Shown here piece after piece: positions 14,540 to 50,216 of a DNA stretch of 50,427 nt. Numbering within the stretch: the first letter of the stretch is position 1; the number at the start of each line of letters is the position of its first letter. The stretch comes from Candidatus Mediterraneibacter pullistercoris (GTDB lineage: Bacteria > Bacillota > Clostridia > Lachnospirales > Lachnospiraceae): NCBI GenBank assembly GCA_019116885.1, contig DXAU01000061.1, forward strand, positions 1 through 50,427, given 5' to 3'. Position numbers and translations under genes: made by a program. Under the pieces are notes generated by a model, which did not search any database, had not been told where the DNA came from, and was given only the letters and a program-made list of their open reading frames with translations.

Positions 14540-17533
14540 CTATGCAAAAAGTCCCTGAAGTTCATCCGCGCAGTCCATCTCAAAGTCCGGTTTCTGCGGC
14601 CAGCTTCCTTCGCCTATCGCCGCGCAGTCCATTCCGGCAGCTTTTGCCGCCTCCAGGCCTGCAGGAGCGTCCTCTACTACCAGGCACTCCTCCGGTCTCA
14701 GCCCAAGAGCCTCAGCCGCCTTTACGAACACCTCCGGATCCGGCTTGCTGTGCGTAATCATTGTCCCGTCGCATATTGCGTCAAACGCGTCTTGTGCGTC
14801 AAGCCGCTCCAGAATATAGAGCGCGTTCTTGCTCGAAGATCCCACCGCAAGTTTCAGCCCTTTTGCTCTGAGAGATGAGAGCATCTCTCTGACTGACGGC
14901 TGCATGTCAGACGGAGTCATCCCGGAGAGGAGTTCTCTGTAATAAGCATTTTTCTTTTCTGCAAGTTCCTGTTTTCTCTCTTCCGTCAGCTCCTCGCTGC
15001 ATTTTTCCAGTATGATTTCAAGGCTTTCCATTCTGCTCACGCCGCGCAGTCTGCGGTTTACTGTCTCGTCAAACGGAATTCCCAGCTCGTCGGCGATCTT
15101 CTTCCATGCGAGGTAATGGAATTTATCTGTGTGGCAGAGCACGCCGTCAAGGTCAAAGATCACCCCTTTGTATTTTCCGACATCCGCTCTGTCTGTACTG
15201 TCCGATACCAGCCCGCCTTCTTTCAGGATATACTCTTTCCCGTTCAGTTCAAGAGCAAGCTCCGGCCCCGCCAGATGAGCTGCTGTTATATGTCCCGGCG
15301 TCAGCGTCACTTTGATCTGTGTTCCGCGCCAGCAGATGCTGAATTCCATCTTATTCCACGAAGCAGGGAGGTGGTTTTCCATGGACAGTTTTCCATCTTC
15401 CCACTTCAGACCTGCGAATCCGCATACACCGCACTGCCAGATTCCGCCCATAGCGGCGCTGTGTATTCCTTCATTTGACGACCCGGGATTGGAACCCATA
15501 TCGATGTCGACCGCATGACGGTACATATCAAGCGCCATCTGATCCATTCCCATCCATGCTGACACAACGCAGTGCTGGCCGTGGCTCAGCGAAGAGTCGT
15601 GCAGTGTGCGGGATTCATAGAAGAGGAAGTTCTTGCGCCTTGTGCTGTCGTCGAACAGATCCGGCATGATTCGCAGAAGCATCACCAGATCCGCCTGTTT
15701 CGATACCATGAACCGGTTCATCTGAGCCGGACTGTAATCCTCATATATGGAGGACACGCCTACCTGCTCCCGGTATTTTGTCAGGTCAATCTTCTCCAGG
15801 CTGAGGTACTCGTCATTCTGCGGCACGAGGCCGTCTTCCCTTGGAACAGGCAGGTAGATCCGCTCTGCTTTTTCCAGGAAATCTTTCTGCAGCTTTGCCA
15901 GATCATGGGACGCACCCAGCCTCTTCTTTGCATCCGGCCACTTCTCATCCATAAGGTCGACCGCTTCCGCCGCGATCTTCAGATTATATGCTGCAAGATA
16001 GTTTGTAAACGCATTGTTGTCAACGTCTTCTTTATACTCGTCAGGTCCGATTACTCCGCAGATCTCATACCGCTGAGCATCTTCTTTCCATTCAAGGCGG
16101 CTCGACCAGAACCTGGCAGTCTCGATCAGAAGCTCACAGCCGTACTTTTCCATGAAGTCATCATCTTGTACTGCGTTATAGTACAGCCATACAGCCCATG
16201 CCACGTCCGCTGTAATGTGGTGCTCCCGGATTCCTGTATAGATCGGGATGCTCTCTCCCGTCACCACATCTGCCGCTCCGTAGAGAGGCGTAACTTCGCC
16301 GTCATCCAGCCATGCGCTCTCCCAGGGGAACATCGCTCCTTCATAGCCGCTTTCCTGCGCTTTTCGGTACGCCCCCGGCAGTGTCCGGTAGCGGTACTCA
16401 AGCAGCGTTCTGGCTGCGGACGGGTCTGTCAGGAGGTAATGGGGGAACAGGAACATCTCCGTATCCCAGAATGAGTGTCCTTTATATCCTTCTCCGGTCA
16501 GGCCCTTCGCGCCAATTCCAACGCGGCTGTCCCGTCTCTGAATCATGATATTCAGATGATACAGTGCGAATCTCACTCCAAGCTGGTCTTTCACTTCCGG
16601 GCTTTCGATGACTACATCCATACGTTTCCAGTAATCCGTCCACATCCGAGCTGACTCAGCGAGCAGTTCATCGTAGCTTTTCCCTTTGCACCCGCGGATG
16701 CACGCTTCGCCTGCTTCTGATACAGGCTCTTCCTCTGTAGTTCCTGCCGGATATTCCAAAGTCTCGAACTCCATGTCCCGCCCTGTATGGTAACAGATTG
16801 TCTTCTCCATGCAGAAGCTCTCTTCTGCGTCCGTCGTGAACCGGAATCTTTTAACAAAACGTCTTCTCTCTATTACTGGCAGTTCAAACGCCGGCTCTGT
16901 ATTGAAATGGTGTACGCAGTGTACAGCCACCGGAATGTCAGATTCGCACGTTCTCGTCGTAAGACGCAGAATATCTCCGTCGATCAGTCGCTTATTTCCG
17001 TCCAGACAGTGCTGGGCTCCTGTGTTTGAGCTTCTCGAGCTGATCCCGCTCTCGATCTCGATCTCCACCGGCCCTGACAGGGGCACGATCTCAAGCTGGA
17101 ATGACGCCACATGCAGGCGGGTCAAGGATACGAATCTGCGGAAACAGAATCTTACCCTGTCTTTTGAGGGGCTCTCCCATGTAACCACGCGCACACATTC
17201 TCCGTTTCTCAGATTAAGCCTCCTGGAGTATGACAGCACTTTTCCCCGGTCCATAGAGAACCGTTCCTTATTCACTCTGATTACGAGACCTGTCACGTCC
17301 GGAAGATTGGGCAGCTCTGTCACTTCGTCCGGAGTCGCCTTGTTAAAGGTTCCTGCGATAAAAGTGTCCCTGCATTGCCCTACATAGTCTTCTTCGAGCG
17401 CACACCGGATATTCATATATCCGTTTCCCTGCGCAAATATAGATTCGCATTTCGCCATGCAGCGGGAATCAAATCCCGCTTCCTCGATCATCCACCCGTC
17501 GGGGTCGACATTATAATTCATATGAAAGTTCAT
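14540..17533 (-). CDS. GH65 disaccharide phosphorylase fused to beta-phosphoglucomutase
   Basis: This 997-residue protein joins two enzymes. Residues 1 to about 770 form a GH65 phosphorylase: FWDTEMF at 355-361, and the general acid Glu499 in GPDEY, followed by NNAFTNY. GH65 phosphorylases split maltose, trehalose, kojibiose, nigerose or related alpha-glucosides with phosphate into glucose and beta-glucose 1-phosphate. Residues 787-997 form a HAD-family beta-phosphoglucomutase: DLDGV at 794-798, the RLRGVSR cap segment, SSSKN near 899, KPDPEVF at 930-936 and EDA at 954-956. That half turns beta-glucose 1-phosphate into glucose 6-phosphate, so the fusion couples consecutive steps. A short linker rich in Asp and Ser separates the halves. 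It is the last gene of the LacI-controlled operon. An AAGGAG site sets the start. Confidence 0.93.
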   Translation of the reverse strand: MNFHMNYNVDPDGWMIEEAGFDSRCMAKCESIFAQGNGYMNIRCALEEDYVGQCRDTFIAGTFNKATPDEVTELPNLPDVTGLVIRVNKERFSMDRGKVLSYSRRLNLRNGECVRVVTWESPSKDRVRFCFRRFVSLTRLHVASFQLEIVPLSGPVEIEIESGISSRSSNTGAQHCLDGNKRLIDGDILRLTTRTCESDIPVAVHCVHHFNTEPAFELPVIERRRFVKRFRFTTDAEESFCMEKTICYHTGRDMEFETLEYPAGTTEEEPVSEAGEACIRGCKGKSYDELLAESARMWTDYWKRMDVVIESPEVKDQLGVRFALYHLNIMIQRRDSRVGIGAKGLTGEGYKGHSFWDTEMFLFPHYLLTDPSAARTLLEYRYRTLPGAYRKAQESGYEGAMFPWESAWLDDGEVTPLYGAADVVTGESIPIYTGIREHHITADVAWAVWLYYNAVQDDDFMEKYGCELLIETARFWSSRLEWKEDAQRYEICGVIGPDEYKEDVDNNAFTNYLAAYNLKIAAEAVDLMDEKWPDAKKRLGASHDLAKLQKDFLEKAERIYLPVPREDGLVPQNDEYLSLEKIDLTKYREQVGVSSIYEDYSPAQMNRFMVSKQADLVMLLRIMPDLFDDSTRRKNFLFYESRTLHDSSLSHGQHCVVSAWMGMDQMALDMYRHAVDIDMGSNPGSSNEGIHSAAMGGIWQCGVCGFAGLKWEDGKLSMENHLPASWNKMEFSICWRGTQIKVTLTPGHITAAHLAGPELALELNGKEYILKEGGLVSDSTDRADVGKYKGVIFDLDGVLCHTDKFHYLAWKKIADELGIPFDETVNRRLRGVSRMESLEIILEKCSEELTEERKQELAEKKNAYYRELLSGMTPSDMQPSVREMLSSLRAKGLKLAVGSSSKNALYILERLDAQDAFDAICDGTMITHSKPDPEVFVKAAEALGLRPEECLVVEDAPAGLEAAKAAGMDCAAIGEGSWPQKPDFEMDCADELQGLFA

Positions 17534-43656: not shown

Positions 43657-43968
43657 TCAGTACCGCCATCCGTCTCCCGTGCCTGATTCGATTCCTTCTA
43701 TCGCACCGAATCCGTTGATCTCGACTTCATACCAGCTGTCTCCGTTTACAATCGTGTACTGGTACTCATTCCACAGGCCTTCACTGCTGACTTCCTGATT
43801 AACAATCTCTCCTCCATTCGTCTGCTGGAGTGCAATGTTCTGTGCCTCTGTCCCGTTGATCCTGAGCGTTAATATCAGAATCAATACAATAATCACAATC
43901 AGCACAACTGCTCCTGCTATAATCCCAATAAGTCCTTTTTTTCCAAGTTTCTTTAACATCTTTACCAT
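43657..43968 (-). CDS. Small membrane-anchored PepSY-like protein
   Basis: This 103-residue protein has a basic N terminus, one long membrane helix (about 10-32) and a short extracytoplasmic domain. That domain contains EAQNIAL near 38, the same helix motif as in the neighbouring PepSY lipoprotein (QAQNIAL), followed by a beta-strand segment with WYEVEINGFG. PepSY domains are thought to inhibit or sense envelope proteases or ligands. The start at 43968 is chosen because its ATG overlaps the stop of the upstream gene and AGAGGAG precedes it; the genes are translationally coupled. Confidence 0.75.
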   Translation of the reverse strand: MVKMLKKLGKKGLIGIIAGAVVLIVIIVLILILTLRINGTEAQNIALQQTNGGEIVNQEVSSEGLWNEYQYTIVNGDSWYEVEINGFGAIEGIESGTGDGWRY

Positions 43969-44597
43969 CTCTCCTCTTCCCATTTCAGGACATTTCCTGT
44001 ATTTGCATCGATCTCAAATTCATACTCCATCCGATTATACAGGATATCCCCCTCATATATATACCATCCGTCATCAAAGTCCAATTTAATGGATATGTTC
44101 TGTGAAGTCGCTCCCGGCACTCTCTCCAGAGCAATGTTCTGGGCCTGTTCCAGGCTTATCGCCACATCTGCTGCAGTTCTGTTTCCCGAAAATCCGCTGC
44201 CTGACTGATTTCCTGCAGAGTTGGAAGCTGTATTGTTGTTCCCGGATGTCTGTCCGAAATTGCCTGCTGTCGTCCCGTTATCTGCTGCAGTGCCGCTGTT
44301 TGTTGTGGTCCCACTGTCTGCCGCCGCGCCGCTGTCTGCTGTGGTTCCTCCACTCGCCGTATTATCAGTTGTTCCAGTACTGTCTGTCGAATCAGCGGAA
44401 TTCTGCTGACTGTTTTTAATTGTGTCAATCTCCTGCTGCAGAGCATCAATCTCTGCCTGAAGTTCCTGTTCTCTGTCAGCGCTGCTGTTTCCTGATGACT
44501 GAGCCGGAACCTGGCCCGCTCCGCCAACGCCGCAGCCGGTAAGCATTACAAATATCAATGCAGCCCCTGCAAGGATTGTCAGATATTTTTTCTTCAT
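43962..44597 (-). CDS. PepSY-domain lipoprotein
   Basis: This 211-residue protein has a lipoprotein signal peptide with lipobox LTGC (Cys22), a short coiled coil (about 40-65, rich in Glu and Gln), a low-complexity Ser/Thr/Gly/Asn/Ala linker (about 66-140, with repeats of TTADSG type) and a C-terminal PepSY domain (about 145-211) with QAQNIAL and the WYIYEGDILYN...YEFEIDANTG core. It is anchored to the outside of the membrane. Its upstream region carries a direct repeat like one before the dlt-like operon. Function is not established. Confidence 0.83.
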   Translation of the reverse strand: MKKKYLTILAGAALIFVMLTGCGVGGAGQVPAQSSGNSSADREQELQAEIDALQQEIDTIKNSQQNSADSTDSTGTTDNTASGGTTADSGAAADSGTTTNSGTAADNGTTAGNFGQTSGNNNTASNSAGNQSGSGFSGNRTAADVAISLEQAQNIALERVPGATSQNISIKLDFDDGWYIYEGDILYNRMEYEFEIDANTGNVLKWEEERW

Positions 44598-44665: not shown

Positions 44666-45625
44666 TTAATTTTTTATTCTTTTTTTCAACTCTGCCAGAT
44701 ATTTCTCAGCCAGACGATCCCAGTCCTGATATACGGAATCGCCTCTGTGATCCGTCATATCGTACTTTTCATCGATATATTTCCCGAGATAAGCAGTCAC
44801 TTTCTGTGCTCCGAACAGGTTCAGATGGTCGCCTCTGTCGTAGCTGTCTTTCTTCCAGTCTATCCCCAGCTCCTTTGCTTTCAGATTGAGATCGATATAG
44901 TGAAGCCCTTTTGTGCCTGCATATTCCTCGATAGCATTATGTTTCTTATAATTATAGTTCTTCGGAGAAGGAGCGCTGTACAGTACCAACTCCGCCCCGT
45001 TCTTTTTACAGAGATCCATAATCTTTTCCATATACATATGTACAGTTCTGGGAATCTCCGCCTTATCAGTCGTTTCCTTCATGTAGTTCTTTTCTTTGTC
45101 GCTGTCACACCCTTTGACCCCGTCACGAATGGTAAATCCTTTATAGTCGTCGTTAGGCACCCGGCCGTCCAGAAGCATCTTCCACAAATTATGATAGCGG
45201 AACACCGGCATGTGGTACCTTAAAAATTCTGTCAGGCTCGTCTGAATATTTCCGAAGAATCCAGGATTGCGGAACATCAGGTTCGTCTCCATTAGGACCA
45301 CTTTCGGCGACTGTTTCTCCAGCGCATGCCTGAGCATATAATACGTCTCCTGGACTTTCTGCCCCGGCTGGCCGCACACATAGGATGAGTATCCCCTGTC
45401 TGCCCATATCCCGAGCGGAGAGACGGAAGTATAGCTCTCACTGTCTCCCAGCACGATCATATCCACCGAGCCTTCCGGCTCCGCGGCGATCCCCGTGTAA
45501 GTACGGCTGCGCCCTTTCACATACTTTGACATGCTCTGTGCCCGGCTGCTGATCCACGCAGACCCGATCCCGAGCAGGAGCGCAAGTACCACAAAAAATA
45601 TAATACAGCGTCTGATATTCTTCAT
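44666..45625 (-). CDS. Membrane-anchored SGNH-fold protein (DltD/AlgX-like role)
   Basis: This 320-residue protein has one N-terminal membrane helix (about 7-26) and an extracytoplasmic SGNH-type domain with the serine block GDSES (60-64) and the C-terminal acid-histidine pair in DRGDHLN (264-270). It is not a recognisable DltD, but DltD and AlgJ/AlgX are also membrane-bound SGNH-type partners of MBOAT proteins, and here it follows the MBOAT gene by 10 bp. It probably takes part in transfer or removal of the acyl group outside the cell. Start at 45625 is set by AAGGAG 6 bp upstream. It is the last gene of the five-gene operon. Confidence 0.85.
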   Translation of the reverse strand: MKNIRRCIIFFVVLALLLGIGSAWISSRAQSMSKYVKGRSRTYTGIAAEPEGSVDMIVLGDSESYTSVSPLGIWADRGYSSYVCGQPGQKVQETYYMLRHALEKQSPKVVLMETNLMFRNPGFFGNIQTSLTEFLRYHMPVFRYHNLWKMLLDGRVPNDDYKGFTIRDGVKGCDSDKEKNYMKETTDKAEIPRTVHMYMEKIMDLCKKNGAELVLYSAPSPKNYNYKKHNAIEEYAGTKGLHYIDLNLKAKELGIDWKKDSYDRGDHLNLFGAQKVTAYLGKYIDEKYDMTDHRGDSVYQDWDRLAEKYLAELKKRIKN

Positions 45626-45635
45626 CTTCATCTCC

Positions 45636-47225
45636 TTAGAATCCCGCATAGATCATATCCACCGCCTGATATCCGTCTCCATAAGCAGCAAAGATTATTA
45701 CCGCCAGAATGAGTCCATAATACACACACCATCTGGCCGCAACAGGCCTCTCGGCAAATTTCTGCGGGATGTTTTTATTATTTTCCATAATGTGTCCTAC
45801 AATTGCGGCAACAACACATCCTGCCGCTGCCACCGCCAGGTCGCTCCTTGCAAGCCCGAGTTCAAGAAGACTCCCGTCCCACAGACGGCTGAGTCCGAAG
45901 TCCCGGAACATGCTGCGGAACATATGAACCCCGGCCTTTAACCCATCTGCCCGGAAGAAAAGCTCTCCTGTAAAGATAATGACCCATGTCTTAGCAGTCT
46001 GCACAATCCGCCAGCCTGTGGACTCCTCATGTATATGGCATGCGGAAAGTATTTTGTCCCGAAGAGGTTTTACCGCCTCACCAGCCAGAATAAGGACAAA
46101 ATAATACATTCCATAGAATATATAGCTCCATCTTGCGCCGTGCCACAGTCCGTTGCACAGCCATACCGGAAAAAGCGCAGCCGCTGCCACGCCCAGTTGT
46201 GTGGCATATTTTCCCAGATGCTTCCTTCCAAACTGATTCCAGCGCTTCACAATCCCAGACATAGATACCGGATAAAAAATATACGTCTTAAACCATGTTC
46301 CCAGTGTGATATGCCAACGCCGCCAGAATTCTGCCGCGCTCCGCGCGCAGAAGGGCTGTCTGAAGTTCTCCGGCAGACAAACTCCAAAGAGCTTTCCGCT
46401 TCCTATGATGATATCCATACAGCCTGAAAACTCCATATAGAGCTGTATCGTATATGCTACGGCTCCCACTGCGATGAGCACACCGCTGTATTGCGTATAG
46501 TTGTCAAATATGGCCGCTACAGGGACTGCCAGACGGTCCGCAACAATTTTTTTCTTGAACAGCCCCCAGAATATTCTCACATATCCATCCGTCAGATTCT
46601 GATATTTCAGCGGTTCTCCCTGAAAGAGCGTCTTGGCGGTATCTGAGTACCGGCAAATCGGACCTTCCATGATCTGGGGAAAGAATCCGAGGAAAAGAGC
46701 CATCCTTCCAGGTTTCCCCTCCGGCGCTATCTTGCCCCAGTACACATCTGCCATGTACCCGATTGCCTGGAGGGTGTAAAATGAGATGCCGACAGGCATG
46801 ACAAGTTTCTTCTCCTCGAGCGTCAGGGGCAGGGAGATCCAGTCCGGAATCAGATCCATGCTGCGCACAAAAAAATTGTAATACTTAAGATATGCGAGTA
46901 CTGCCAAAAGCAGGATCACCCCCAGCGCCAACGCTTTTTTTCTCCGGCGCTGGTATTTCAGTTTTATCTCTCTCTTCCCGGATCTGTCGGCTTCCGCCAT
47001 CTCTGTTGTTTCTTCCGTCCGGAGCCATGCCAGGGCAATGCCTGTATAGTACGTCAGAAGTGTGGCTCCGATCAAATAGACCAGCAGCGCCCTGCTCAGC
47101 AGGAAGAAGAACGCCCAGCTGAATATGAGCAGAACTTTCCAGCGGTGACGCCGGGGTGTAAACTGATATGCGGCGAGGCACACGGGCAGAAATACAAATA
47201 TATAAAGTATCGCATCATATGACAT
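45636..47225 (-). CDS. MBOAT acyltransferase (AlgI/DltB family)
   Basis: This 529-residue membrane protein has about 11-12 hydrophobic segments and the MBOAT signatures: GISFYTLQAIGY near 146, FRQPFCARSAAEFWRRWHITL (288-308) and the catalytic histidine His362 in NGLWHGA. Its length and motifs are closer to AlgI/PatA types than to DltB (about 400 residues). MBOAT proteins of these types move an acyl group across the membrane to a surface polymer; in the dlt pathway the donor is the carrier-protein thioester. Here the carrier gene lies 3 bp upstream, so this MBOAT most likely takes the aminoacyl group from it. Confidence 0.92.
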   Translation of the reverse strand: MSYDAILYIFVFLPVCLAAYQFTPRRHRWKVLLIFSWAFFFLLSRALLVYLIGATLLTYYTGIALAWLRTEETTEMAEADRSGKREIKLKYQRRRKKALALGVILLLAVLAYLKYYNFFVRSMDLIPDWISLPLTLEEKKLVMPVGISFYTLQAIGYMADVYWGKIAPEGKPGRMALFLGFFPQIMEGPICRYSDTAKTLFQGEPLKYQNLTDGYVRIFWGLFKKKIVADRLAVPVAAIFDNYTQYSGVLIAVGAVAYTIQLYMEFSGCMDIIIGSGKLFGVCLPENFRQPFCARSAAEFWRRWHITLGTWFKTYIFYPVSMSGIVKRWNQFGRKHLGKYATQLGVAAAALFPVWLCNGLWHGARWSYIFYGMYYFVLILAGEAVKPLRDKILSACHIHEESTGWRIVQTAKTWVIIFTGELFFRADGLKAGVHMFRSMFRDFGLSRLWDGSLLELGLARSDLAVAAAGCVVAAIVGHIMENNKNIPQKFAERPVAARWCVYYGLILAVIIFAAYGDGYQAVDMIYAGF

Positions 47226-47228
47226 GGA

Positions 47229-47456
47229 TTAATTCTCCTGTAGTCTCTTTATCATTTCCCATATTGCTTCGGCAGAGTTAAAATTTACCGGAGTCATCTC
47301 TGCCGCCTCTATCGTGACATCAAAAGCGTCTTCAAGCTCAGCGACCAGAGTAATCACTCCAAAAGAGTCAAGCAGTCTGTCGTCAATAAGTGCCTTTTCA
47401 TTTGCATAATCGATACCGTCGTCAATCTCTCTTAATATTTCCAATATCTTATCCAT
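47229..47456 (-). CDS. Acyl/aminoacyl carrier protein (DltC-like)
   Basis: This 75-residue carrier protein is a four-helix bundle type with the phosphopantetheine attachment serine Ser31 in LLDSFG, as in DltC. It is acidic and follows an AGGAGG site. It lies between the PLP decarboxylase and MBOAT genes, consistent with holding the activated amino acid as a thioester for the adenylating enzyme and the MBOAT. Confidence 0.93.
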   Translation of the reverse strand: MDKILEILREIDDGIDYANEKALIDDRLLDSFGVITLVAELEDAFDVTIEAAEMTPVNFNSAEAIWEMIKRLQEN

Positions 47457-47486
47457 GTTTCTTTCCTCCTGTAATTCATTTTTAAT

Positions 47487-48674
47487 TCAGGCGTTTTCCA
47501 CCATATTCATAGGGTAAGTCTCTTTTCTTGCCCGAAGCAGTTCCCATCCGCTTTCTTTACTGTAAGATACTACTTTGGGGAGCGCATGGCTTAAAAACAG
47601 TGCCATCCCTTCCATAGCCGAATATGCTCCGGCTCTCTCGAACACAAGCGTCCTTCCTGTTCTTACTCCAGAGAGGGATACATTCCTGCACAAAATATCA
47701 TTTACACTGCACAGCGAACCGCACACTGTCCATTTATCCTCTCTATCTTCCGGACGCTCCGGAAGCATGCACAGATAAGGTTCGTACATCCCTCTAATCT
47801 GTCCGTCATAGTTCATTTGATGATTTCCGCCATCCACGATACAGTAGTTCGTGCCGCCGTTCGTTTTGACATCGCAGATCCCCGTAAGATAATAGCCGCA
47901 CGTTGCCGCAAAAGCCCGTCCCATCTCGATTGTTATCTCACCGCCCCAGCGCATCCCATCCAACAGATCCGCCAGACGCTCAAAGCCGCTGTCATCATAC
48001 GTCTCCGGTGTCCTGCCCCTGAAGTAGGGAACCGCAATGCCCGGTCCATATTCCAGACATCTGACATCGCATCCTGTTTTGTCCTTGAGTCTGAGTAGGA
48101 AATCATCTATATAATCGATCTCCTTTTTCAGCTGCTCCAGCGACCGTTTCTGTGTGCCGGTAAAATAGTGAAGACCTTCAATCTGCAGATACGGGCTCAT
48201 ATAAATAAGTCCGATAATATTGTAAAATGTGTCTTCATCCATCCCGAACTGATCGCCGCCGCTGAGCCGCAGATAGAGTCGAAGGCTGGTCTCATGGGCG
48301 TCGCTCCACTCTGCCAGATAATGGAACTGCCTGACAGACTCTACGGTGCAGGCACATCTCCCACCGTAGAAATCAAGGATCTCGTTGATATCATCCCTTT
48401 TCTTGACAACACCGGAGATAAGCAGTTTCTCTGGTGGAATTTTAAGTTCTCTGCATATCCTGAATTCACCCATGGAACACACTTCGATGCGGTCCGCCAG
48501 TCCTGCCATCTGTTCTGTGAGAAACGGGTTTGCTTTCATCGCATAGCACAGCTTTGCGCTCCTCCCCAGTTTTTCCCTGATCCTTTCTGTTTCTTCTTTT
48601 AAAATGTCTTTATCAAAGATATAGAGCGGCGTCCCATAACGCGCGATTCCATACTCCAACTGTTCTTTCTTCAT
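47487..48674 (-). CDS. Fold-III PLP-dependent decarboxylase inside dlt-like operon
   Basis: This 395-residue protein belongs to the alanine-racemase-fold decarboxylases (LysA, ornithine and carboxynorspermidine decarboxylase, BtrK). The PLP lysine is Lys47 in YAMKANP; the C-terminal active site has CGSLCSVND (318-326, Cys322) and GAYSAMEG (349-356). It departs from diaminopimelate decarboxylase: HIGSQ is replaced by FTGTQ (171-175) and the glycine loop by EYGPG (208-212). BtrK of butirosin synthesis, in the same fold, decarboxylates a glutamyl group on a carrier protein. Here the gene lies between an adenylating enzyme and a carrier protein, so action on the free or carrier-bound amino acid is inferred. 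A racemase role is the alternative. Confidence 0.85.
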   Translation of the reverse strand: MKKEQLEYGIARYGTPLYIFDKDILKEETERIREKLGRSAKLCYAMKANPFLTEQMAGLADRIEVCSMGEFRICRELKIPPEKLLISGVVKKRDDINEILDFYGGRCACTVESVRQFHYLAEWSDAHETSLRLYLRLSGGDQFGMDEDTFYNIIGLIYMSPYLQIEGLHYFTGTQKRSLEQLKKEIDYIDDFLLRLKDKTGCDVRCLEYGPGIAVPYFRGRTPETYDDSGFERLADLLDGMRWGGEITIEMGRAFAATCGYYLTGICDVKTNGGTNYCIVDGGNHQMNYDGQIRGMYEPYLCMLPERPEDREDKWTVCGSLCSVNDILCRNVSLSGVRTGRTLVFERAGAYSAMEGMALFLSHALPKVVSYSKESGWELLRARKETYPMNMVENA

Positions 48675-48698
48675 ACTGAAATTTTTCCTTTCTCTGTA

Positions 48699-50216
48699 TC
48701 ATTCTGATGCAAGACGCTGAAAATAACTTCTGTCCGTCTTTCCATTCTTATTGAGCGGCATCACCGCTACCTGCTTTATCCTGGACGGCACCATATAGAC
48801 TGGTACTTTGTCTTTCATATACTTTCTTACCTCTGAAGGCTGCGCTTCTCCCATATAGAACCCGGATATCCGGTTCTTCTCCCGGTCAAACACACAGCAG
48901 CTCTTCGTCACGCCTCGGGCCGAATTCATCGCGCTTTCTACTTCCTCCAATTCAATTCGGTGTCCCATATGCTTAATCTGAAAATCTTTTCGGCCTGCAA
49001 ATACCAGATTGCCGCCGTCGTCATAATATCCCAGATCCCCGGTCTTATAGATGCGCTGCCTGTTCTCTCCGCTTACCTGAAAACTGACAAAACGCTCTGC
49101 CGTCTGTTCCCTGTTTCTGTAATATCCCAATGCCAGCGATTCCCCTGCAGCACAGATCTCCCCGGTCTGGCCCGGCGCTGCGATCTCTCGCCCATCCTCA
49201 TCCATAAGAAAGACGGTTCTTCCCGGAAACGCCCGCCCGATCGGTATCTTCTCATCATCTGAATATCTTCTTTCTATCTTATAGTATGTACAGTTGCACG
49301 TCACTTCTGTCGGCCCGTACAGATTCACGAACCTGGCATCCGGAAGGGCGTCCTGCCACACCCTGAGCTGCTTTGGCGGCATTGCTTCCCCGCTGAACAG
49401 TATCTTGTCCACACTTTCCGGCACACGGTAATCCAGCCCTTTCAGAGAAGATACGAGCGTCAGCGCAGACACAGCCCATATCATGGTTGTCACTTCCTTT
49501 TTGCACAGGTAATCAAGGAGCCGGGGCGGAGTCGCAAAATACGTTTTAGGGATCAGCACCAGATCCGCTCCCGTCATGATGCAGGAATAGATATCCTTTA
49601 CCGATACGTCAAAGTCAAAAGGTGCCTGGTTCCCCACCCGGTCCTCATGTGAGATCCCGAAAATGTCCACAAAATGCCCGATAAACCTTAGCACTGCTTC
49701 GTGGCTTACCGCAACGGCTTTCGGCACTCCTGTTGACCCGGATGTAAAAAGCGCATATAGAATGTCCGACTCCCTGCTCTTCTCTCTTATCTCAGCGAGA
49801 AGAGATTCATCCGTTTCCTCTGTCAGAAGTTTCCCCACATCCAGCCGCGCTTTCTCAAATCCTGTGCCGACAAGCATGCCGGCGTTTTCTTGATCCGTTA
49901 CTATGACTGAAGGATCCAGAACCTGTAATATCTTCTTAAGCCGCTGCGGTGGGTTGTCCGGATTGACCGGAACATAGAAGCATCCTGCATACACAGCGCC
50001 CAGCATTGCCGCAAGAGTCAGCGGACTCTTCTCCATGAGCACAGGAACAGGACTTCCCGGCGGTACTCTGCGGGCAAGGCCGCTCCCAATCTGTCTGGCC
50101 TTTTGTACCAGTTCATAATAGGTAAGCGAAGAATTATTATCTTCCACCGCTGTCTTGTTTCTAAAGAGTTCCTGAGTCTGTTCCAAATAGTCAAGAATGT
50201 TGCTTTTTTCTGTCAT
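48699..50216 (-). CDS. Amino-acid adenylating enzyme (DltA-like)
   Basis: This 505-residue protein activates an amino acid with ATP and loads it on a carrier protein. All adenylation motifs are visible: TSGSTG (158-163), FDFDVS near 200-205 with the amino-group-binding Asp, GPTE (301-304), YKTGDLG (390-396), GRKDFQIKHMGHRIE (408-422) and catalytic Lys493 in NKNGK. Length equals DltA. At the position of the D-alanine-selective cysteine of Bacillus DltA (FCGE), this protein has Ser275 (LFSGEA). The ATG at 50216 is preferred over a GTG at 50228, but either is possible. First gene of the operon. Confidence 0.9.
   Translation of the reverse strand: MTEKSNILDYLEQTQELFRNKTAVEDNNSSLTYYELVQKARQIGSGLARRVPPGSPVPVLMEKSPLTLAAMLGAVYAGCFYVPVNPDNPPQRLKKILQVLDPSVIVTDQENAGMLVGTGFEKARLDVGKLLTEETDESLLAEIREKSRESDILYALFTSGSTGVPKAVAVSHEAVLRFIGHFVDIFGISHEDRVGNQAPFDFDVSVKDIYSCIMTGADLVLIPKTYFATPPRLLDYLCKKEVTTMIWAVSALTLVSSLKGLDYRVPESVDKILFSGEAMPPKQLRVWQDALPDARFVNLYGPTEVTCNCTYYKIERRYSDDEKIPIGRAFPGRTVFLMDEDGREIAAPGQTGEICAAGESLALGYYRNREQTAERFVSFQVSGENRQRIYKTGDLGYYDDGGNLVFAGRKDFQIKHMGHRIELEEVESAMNSARGVTKSCCVFDREKNRISGFYMGEAQPSEVRKYMKDKVPVYMVPSRIKQVAVMPLNKNGKTDRSYFQRLASE

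Follow-up and report, generated by a model that had tools for sequence, protein, structure and literature searches.

D-Alanylation is the textbook route to a positive surface charge in Gram-positive bacteria. In the Dlt pathway, as described in the sections of PMC12148441 used here, the acyl group moves from the carrier to a tyrosine in the DltX hexapeptide FXYXXF. For PatA, the same sections place this kind of hexapeptide at the C-terminus of the membrane-bound O-acyltransferase (MBOAT) itself, from where an SGNH partner takes the acyl group. Part of PMC11284099 describes a different use of a stand-alone carrier: VinN loads 3-methylaspartate on the carrier VinL, and the pyridoxal phosphate (PLP) enzyme VinO decarboxylates it there, the thioester being needed first. 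Here, we analyzed a 50,427-nucleotide stretch of DNA from Candidatus Mediterraneibacter pullistercoris (DXAU01000061.1; hereafter, the window), which is an entire contig (C51) of a 2.45-Mb draft genome with 92.4% completeness. The window contains five adjoining genes for an adenylase, a decarboxylase, a carrier, an MBOAT, and a membrane SGNH protein. Judged from the sequence, we consider it moderately probable that they constitute a surface aminoacylation cassette joining Dlt/MBOAT-SGNH transfer with decarboxylation on the carrier.

Gene layout and proposed pathway

The cassette occupies positions 44666-50216 on the minus strand. Its open reading frames bear out the five tightly packed genes of the original prediction, which had been made from the letters of the window, with gaps of 24 bp (adenylase/decarboxylase), 30 bp (decarboxylase/carrier), 3 bp (carrier/MBOAT), and 10 bp (MBOAT/SGNH). 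The last gap holds if the SGNH gene starts with the ATG at 45625, six bases downstream of an AAGGAG sequence; the longest SGNH reading frame begins at 45649 and would overlap the MBOAT gene. The spacing suggests that the five genes form one co-transcribed operon, the arrangement met in Dlt-type loci. No promoter was assigned to the cassette; candidate matches were near chance level. The features of the cassette are as follows.

48699..50216, minus strand: stand-alone adenylating enzyme (P0001); TIGR01733, 356.7 bits; pocket residues D203, V204, K207, S275, C307, and N308
49596..49598, minus strand: codon of adenylase K207; Met in canonical DltA, Arg in the class II cassettes described below
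47487..48674, minus strand: fold-III PLP decarboxylase (P0002), BtrK/SbnH-like rather than LysA-like by its residues
47229..47456, minus strand: stand-alone carrier (P0003); PP-binding, AmcB, and DltC matches below the cut-off, DltC matches in the PDB
47364-47366, minus strand: codon of carrier Ser31 (DSFG), the expected phosphopantetheine site
45636..47225, minus strand: MBOAT acyltransferase (P0004) of 529 amino acids; PF03062, DltB-like, with His362
45639..45656, minus strand: MBOAT C-terminal hexapeptide M-I-Y-A-G-F, matching the FXYXXF acyl-shuttle motif except at the first residue; Tyr526 at 45648-45650
44666..45625 (longest reading frame to 45649), minus strand: membrane-anchored SGNH protein (P0005) with a putative DltD/PatB-like role, from an AlphaFold model and Foldseek

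By its family, the adenylase would activate a dicarboxylic amino acid (L-Asp or L-Glu being the likeliest) via the carboxyl group distal to the amine and load it on the phosphopantetheine of the carrier, with K207 (Arg in class II) holding the free alpha-carboxylate. Activation must take place at the distal carboxyl, since both the alpha-amino and the alpha-carboxyl group have to be free for PLP-dependent decarboxylation. Homology to BtrK and VinO suggests that the alpha-carboxylate is then removed on the carrier by the PLP enzyme, giving an omega-amino acyl thioester (beta-alanyl from Asp, gamma-aminobutyric acid [GABA] from Glu). The C-terminal motif, read with the published PatA and DltX mechanism, suggests that the MBOAT takes the acyl group through the membrane and attaches it to its own Tyr526, after which the SGNH protein would pass it to a surface polymer, perhaps teichoic acid or a glycan, adding a flexible primary amine. 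This pathway predicts that the carrier-bound group becomes 44 Da lighter and that the surface bears omega-amino acyl groups.

Decarboxylase, adenylase, and transfer proteins

The decarboxylase carries both fold-III domains (PF02784 and PF00278). Its best PDB match is BtrK, the glutamyl-carrier decarboxylase of butirosin synthesis, as is that of the one class II decarboxylase tested, for which BtrK and SbnH are the nearest solved relatives by sequence. The residues that mark LysA are replaced. Among 114 distinct cassette decarboxylases (122 minus duplicates), PLP lysine K47 is kept in all 114, and C322 and D326 are kept in 113, with one gap. The Glu of the LysA CExxD motif and a LysA Arg, which we take to be substrate-binding residues, are exchanged for Thr or Ser (113 of 113; Ser323 in the window) and for Tyr (112 of 114; Tyr289 in the window), compared to Glu in 19 and Arg in 20 of 25 other fold-III sequences. 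Thr at the Glu position is shared with BtrK and SbnH, whose substrates are amino acids conjugated at their distal end. By these residues and its closest solved relative, the window enzyme resembles a carrier-acting decarboxylase of the BtrK/VinO type. A Foldseek search with a partly confident model, which served for fold comparison only, placed SbnH first, with BtrK, several LysA enzymes, and ornithine/lysine decarboxylases close behind.

A housekeeping LysA identity was rejected on residues and score (147.3 bits against TIGR01048; cut-off, 297.9). The original prediction had raised the case that this might be the organism's only diaminopimelate decarboxylase; a separate LysA-like gene is present on contig C16 of the same genome. 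The best NCBIfam match of its product is lysA (267 bits; cut-off, 297.9), and the protein retains both the LysA Glu and Arg. Because the score lies under the cut-off, the C16 protein is a likely LysA.

The adenylating enzyme matches PF00501 and exceeds the cut-off of the amino acid adenylation model TIGR01733 (317.4 bits). Against the DltA model TIGR01734, it reaches 288 bits (cut-off, 559.85), which, as far as sequence can tell, argues against the strictly D-Ala-specific adenylase considered in the original prediction. Pocket positions were picked from what we take to be the GrsA numbering, and the six residues listed above are invariant in 13 sequences, including that of the window. The window enzyme has K207 and S275, whereas the DltA pocket has Met and Cys at these positions; Met occupies position 207 in 8 of 8 DltA-type adenylases. 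A canonical DltA identity was ruled out by the TIGR01734 score, the pocket residues, and a tree position separate from the eight DltA-type enzymes. No DltA over the cut-off was found in the 92.4% complete genome of the window.

Since the pocket code groups are named by their own residues, residues within a group hold by definition, and the fair test of position 207 compares loci with and without a decarboxylase. In Lachnospiraceae, all 36 adenylases near a decarboxylase have Lys or Arg at this position versus 28 of 58 without one. By code, the decarboxylase lies near 33 of 43 DVK, 2 of 2 IAR, 1 of 19 DAK, and 0 of 30 other adenylases in a tabulated set of 94 stand-alone enzymes, picked by eye from a list ending at an E value of 7.7e-77 and not a random sample.

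Decarboxylase cassettes fall into two classes. Class I, to which the window belongs, has an adenylase with D203-V204-K207, and its genes mostly run adenylase-decarboxylase-carrier. In class II, these positions read I-A-R and the order is adenylase-carrier-decarboxylase; as I-A-R replaces D-V-K, its 19 distinct adenylases are without the amine-binding Asp of usual adenylation domains. In a tree of 173 adenylases (165 distinct), class II forms a group of 19 tips (support, 1.0) whose sister (0.874) is the main class I clade with the decarboxylase (94 tips, of which 92 are labelled as having it; 0.979), and the DltA-type enzymes form a distant, separate clade. All GTDB and same-genus adenylases carry the with-decarboxylase label in this tree because their loci were fetched by the decarboxylase; the class II loci were all retrieved in the same way, so that the link of class II to the decarboxylase is not independent.

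The carrier scores below the cut-offs of the PP-binding Pfam model (20.1 bits; cut-off, 20.8), AmcB (37.7 bits), and DltC (34.8 bits), and it matches DltC structures in the PDB. Ser31 in its DSFG motif is expected to bear the phosphopantetheine. The MBOAT matches PF03062 and DltB structures in the PDB, scores 137 bits against the DltB model TIGR04091 (cut-off, 375), and has a His362 that is invariant in 14 aligned sequences. Of 90 distinct MBOATs from decarboxylase loci, 89 end in an xxYxx[FY] motif, compared with 0 of 8 canonical DltBs; in the window, the first residue of the motif is Met, not Phe. The 3- to 30-bp gaps leave no room for a DltX microprotein, the shuttle motif being fused to the MBOAT, with reading frames of <60 amino acids outside the five genes not searched.

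For the SGNH protein, neither a Pfam or NCBIfam match nor a PDB sequence match better than an E value of 0.59 was found. Its AlphaFold model (mean pLDDT, 89.5) matches SGNH hydrolases in Foldseek at E values of about 1e-5 with a query TM-score of about 0.4, followed lower in the list by structures of DltD, among them the Enterococcus and Streptococcus proteins, which is consistent with the proposed transferase role. The GDSE and DxGDHLN motifs are invariant in 13 sequences, and Ser70 of GDS and His275 are kept. D271 and D274 do not have the exact DxxH spacing that we take to be usual for this family.

Conservation, counterevidence, and alternatives

The families and gene order support the earlier view that a decarboxylase is built into a Dlt-like system. 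A close decarboxylase (E ≤ 1e-120) is present in 13 of 36 same-genus relatives, and 12 of these 13 (thus 12 of the 36) have the identical five-gene order; the flanking genes mostly differ. In the thirteenth relative (G008), the MBOAT and SGNH genes come first, and the adenylase and decarboxylase frames are interrupted. Loci L046 (1723-7399) and L059 (3808-9484; [Ruminococcus] faecis JCM 15917) have the order MBOAT-SGNH-adenylase-decarboxylase-carrier; their adenylase and decarboxylase frames are interrupted, and the MBOAT C-terminus differs, which represents either decay or an assembly error. At E ≤ 1e-40, the decarboxylase was absent from all 24 genomes of other families of the order (best E value, 3.9e-23).

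A scan of GTDB with one genome per species confirmed at least 571 decarboxylase relatives, the best 80 of which were taken as wider loci. These loci were found with two peptide patterns derived from cassette decarboxylases, and the set therefore favors close relatives. By record title, it consists largely of Lachnospiraceae (several of them Mediterraneibacter) and other Clostridia, together with Erysipelotrichaceae, Coriobacteria, one Treponema, and, at its weak end, five records of Campylobacterota and Alphaproteobacteria. The conservation of the five-gene order extends to this set, as a single same-strand chain holds the complete set of five in 56 of the best 80 loci. Another 17 have only some of the five genes in the chain, in some cases where a contig end interrupts it, and in seven the decarboxylase is alone in its chain, two of them at contig ends. 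No other cassette gene was detected in five of the best 80 loci (L128-L132). Among 200 Lachnospiraceae genomes (completeness, ≥90%), the decarboxylase is present in 39 and DltA over the cut-off in 6 (among the matches listed), and in 27 of 38 decarboxylase loci (the window's excluded) a single chain comprises the full set of five. Some genomes recur across the 80 loci, the same-genus relatives, and the 200-genome set; the counts of distinct sequences remove duplicates. In one locus (L233 6713-10057), beside a DAK adenylase cassette, a decarboxylase frame of 1114 amino acids runs on into Ig-like, Rib, and transglutaminase-like domains, either a fusion or an assembly artifact.

Several observations weigh against a pathway of carrier-bound decarboxylation and surface transfer. 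Part of PMC11253843 describes the pocket loop of VinN as shortened; a loop one residue shorter was not seen here, segment 300-312 being 13 residues long, as in DltA, in each of the five groups compared. LgrA also aligns to the cassette adenylase without a gap at this segment, and a VinN-type beta-amino acid adenylase pocket was ruled out because the loop is not shortened. D203 with K207 would also fit an ordinary alpha-activating Glu pocket, according to what we take to be the Glu code, and with such a pocket the proposed chemistry would fail, as an alpha-thioester could not be decarboxylated in this way. K207 is not specific to decarboxylation because ten DVK loci have no decarboxylase beside them, eight in genomes without a decarboxylase at E ≤ 1e-40. 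As 18 of 19 DAK adenylases likewise have Lys at position 207 and no decarboxylase nearby, K207 alone was rejected as a decarboxylase marker. On the transfer side, the strict FxYxxF motif occurs in just 46 of the 90 distinct MBOATs of decarboxylase loci, and the shuttle motif is also present in most non-DltA cassettes without a decarboxylase and is thus not special to decarboxylase cassettes. Finally, the structure model of the decarboxylase is poor beyond residue 260, in the C-terminal half, and its scores for the LysA and TIGR03099 hidden Markov models are close, with neither over the cut-off. As these two scores are about equal, the residue evidence carries the argument.

The original prediction had offered three models for the extra enzyme: decarboxylation before activation, decarboxylation on the carrier, and racemization. 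The second is favored here. In the first, the decarboxylase would act on a free amino acid, and the adenylase would then load an amine-bearing acid (beta-alanine, GABA, or similar) for surface transfer. The PDB matches of the decarboxylase include LysA and ornithine/lysine decarboxylases, which presumably act on free amino acids, and the gene order adenylase-decarboxylase-carrier alone leaves the order of steps unfixed. However, the ten DVK cassettes without a decarboxylase speak against an adenylase that needs the decarboxylase's product; no shared replacement decarboxylase was seen in their gene lists by eye. In addition, the pocket keeps a basic residue although the decarboxylated product has no carboxylate to bind, and BtrK and SbnH (closest to the class II decarboxylase; BtrK also to that of class I) use conjugated substrates. 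We regard this order of steps as unlikely, and its version with diaminopimelate as the precursor is disfavored because the cassette decarboxylases are without the LysA Glu and Arg.

Alternatively, the cassette could make a secreted or membrane small molecule or lipid by a natural-product-like acylation rather than modify a wall polymer. The same logic serves vicenistatin synthesis, and adenylase, decarboxylase, and carrier genes stand in a chain without an MBOAT or SGNH gene in five Lachnospiraceae loci (L224, L231, L242, L247, and L252), a further point against surface transfer. Such a trio also occurs in L042 (4200-11358; G019), where a second adenylase-carrier-decarboxylase set without an MBOAT, beside radical-SAM and NAD-synthase matches, looks like a small natural-product cluster. 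The 56 of the best 80 loci that keep MBOAT and SGNH genes in the same chain, a pair used for envelope polymers in the sections of PMC12148441 cited above, make the small-molecule explanation rather improbable. Racemization or epimerization of a free or carrier-bound amino acid, so that a D-amino acid reaches the surface as in Dlt, is very improbable. In its favor, the barrel fold also occurs in alanine racemase, the adenylase pocket can be read as alpha-activating, and there is a weak match to Ala_racemase_N (26.1 bits; cut-off, 24.1). Against it, the C-terminal sheet domain of decarboxylases (PF00278) is present, and 113 of the 114 distinct sequences (one gapped) retain the catalytic Cys and Asp.

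Many adenylase-carrier-MBOAT-SGNH cassettes without a decarboxylase were observed (L164-L206 and L218-L222), with DAK, SM., DNL, and singleton codes, several without the amine-binding Asp. A formyltransferase-like gene is present in four of the ten DVK cassettes without a decarboxylase (L192 6056-6940, L201 8517-9371, L205 2-850, and L217 6122-7003), identified by PF00551 in L192, L205, and L217 and by similarity in L201. In L201 and L217, a gene for a WbuX-like amidotransferase (below the cut-off) adjoins the adenylase gene, and the decarboxylase locus L237 has a weak formyltransferase match as well. These genes possibly represent other tailoring of the carrier-bound amino acid.

Proposed surface product and comparison with known systems

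If the cassette decarboxylates its substrate on the carrier and transfers the product to the surface, Asp with a beta-alanyl product is a plausible candidate held with less than even confidence; Glu with a GABA product is rather doubtful, and another substrate or product is doubtful to the same degree. GABA esters tend to cyclize to the lactam. The slight lean to Asp follows from this tendency and from the lack of a protecting enzyme in the cassette and is a chemical argument only. Regarding the acceptor, four PF04464 matches that lie clustered together and four PF00884 matches were found in the genome; they show capacity only, and teichoic-type polymers are possible. In L045 (9346-12398) and L252 (10168-12411), a small membrane protein (GtcA-like by eye; that of L045 without an NCBIfam match) and a large membrane protein adjoin the cassette, and L045 also has a GT2 glycosyltransferase beside it, as in polymer glycosylation systems. 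These neighbors hint at the acceptor; glycosylation genes occur in few loci and were not a decisive clue.

A PepSY-domain gene (43962-44597) adjoins the cassette in the window. In L033 (10171-12283), histidine kinase and response regulator genes flank the cassette, with look-alikes by eye in the flanks of L037 and L043. Such neighbors make regulation by an envelope-sensing system possible. Elsewhere in the window, 14540-17533 encodes a fusion of a glycoside hydrolase family 65 enzyme and a HAD-type hydrolase, which may be a maltose phosphorylase with a beta-phosphoglucomutase.

More broadly, we tentatively propose, at somewhat under even odds, that gut Lachnospiraceae use Dlt-like cassettes as an interchangeable toolkit. 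At least five non-DltA codes (DVK, IAR, DAK, SM., and DNL) would be combined with carriers, self-shuttling MBOATs, SGNH proteins, and carrier-acting tailoring enzymes (the decarboxylase, and formyltransferases in some), so that carrier chemistry sets surface chemistry, here as beta-alanyl or GABA esters. No description of an MBOAT-SGNH cassette with a decarboxylase was found in the literature searched, at the level of titles and abstract starts and with subscription journals largely outside its scope. Each module is already known; their combination and its spread in gut Lachnospiraceae appear to be new. A widespread cassette that loads another amino acid than D-alanine and decarboxylates it on the carrier would give gut Lachnospiraceae surface amines that have so far escaped attention. 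Charge, ester stability, sensitivity to antimicrobial peptides, and recognition by the immune system would probably all be affected, and the carrier-bound tailoring of antibiotic pathways would meet the acylation of envelope polymers.

Among the known systems, the exosortase-A-associated ligase and decarboxylase (TIGR03098 and TIGR03099) are matched by the cassette adenylase and decarboxylase far below the cut-offs (199 of 592 and 160 of 478 bits, respectively). In VinN-VinL-VinO and BtrJ-BtrI-BtrK, a PLP enzyme likewise decarboxylates an amino acid with a second carboxylate after its loading on a stand-alone carrier, as described for VinO in part of its literature and as indicated for BtrK by its PDB molecule name. 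However, those systems feed antibiotic synthesis, whereas the cassette trio is tied to an MBOAT-SGNH pair, and the cassette adenylase is without the shortened pocket loop of VinN. BtrJ is presumably not an adenylase of the same family as that of the cassette. The operon of the Dlt system (DltA, DltB, DltC, DltD, and DltX) likewise comprises a stand-alone adenylase, a carrier, an MBOAT, and an SGNH protein; the cassette differs from it in adenylase pocket and tree position, in the extra decarboxylase, and in carrying the tyrosine motif on the MBOAT C-terminus in place of a separate DltX. PatA-PatB and other MBOAT-SGNH pairs likewise combine an MBOAT bearing a C-terminal tyrosine hexapeptide with an SGNH transferase. 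In contrast to the cassette, where the carrier is the likely donor, pairs of the PatA-PatB type use acyl-CoA and no carrier, according to the sections of PMC12148441 used here. With a carrier present and the tyrosine motif at the C-terminus of its MBOAT, the cassette is a hybrid, carrier-fed like Dlt and self-shuttling like PatA.

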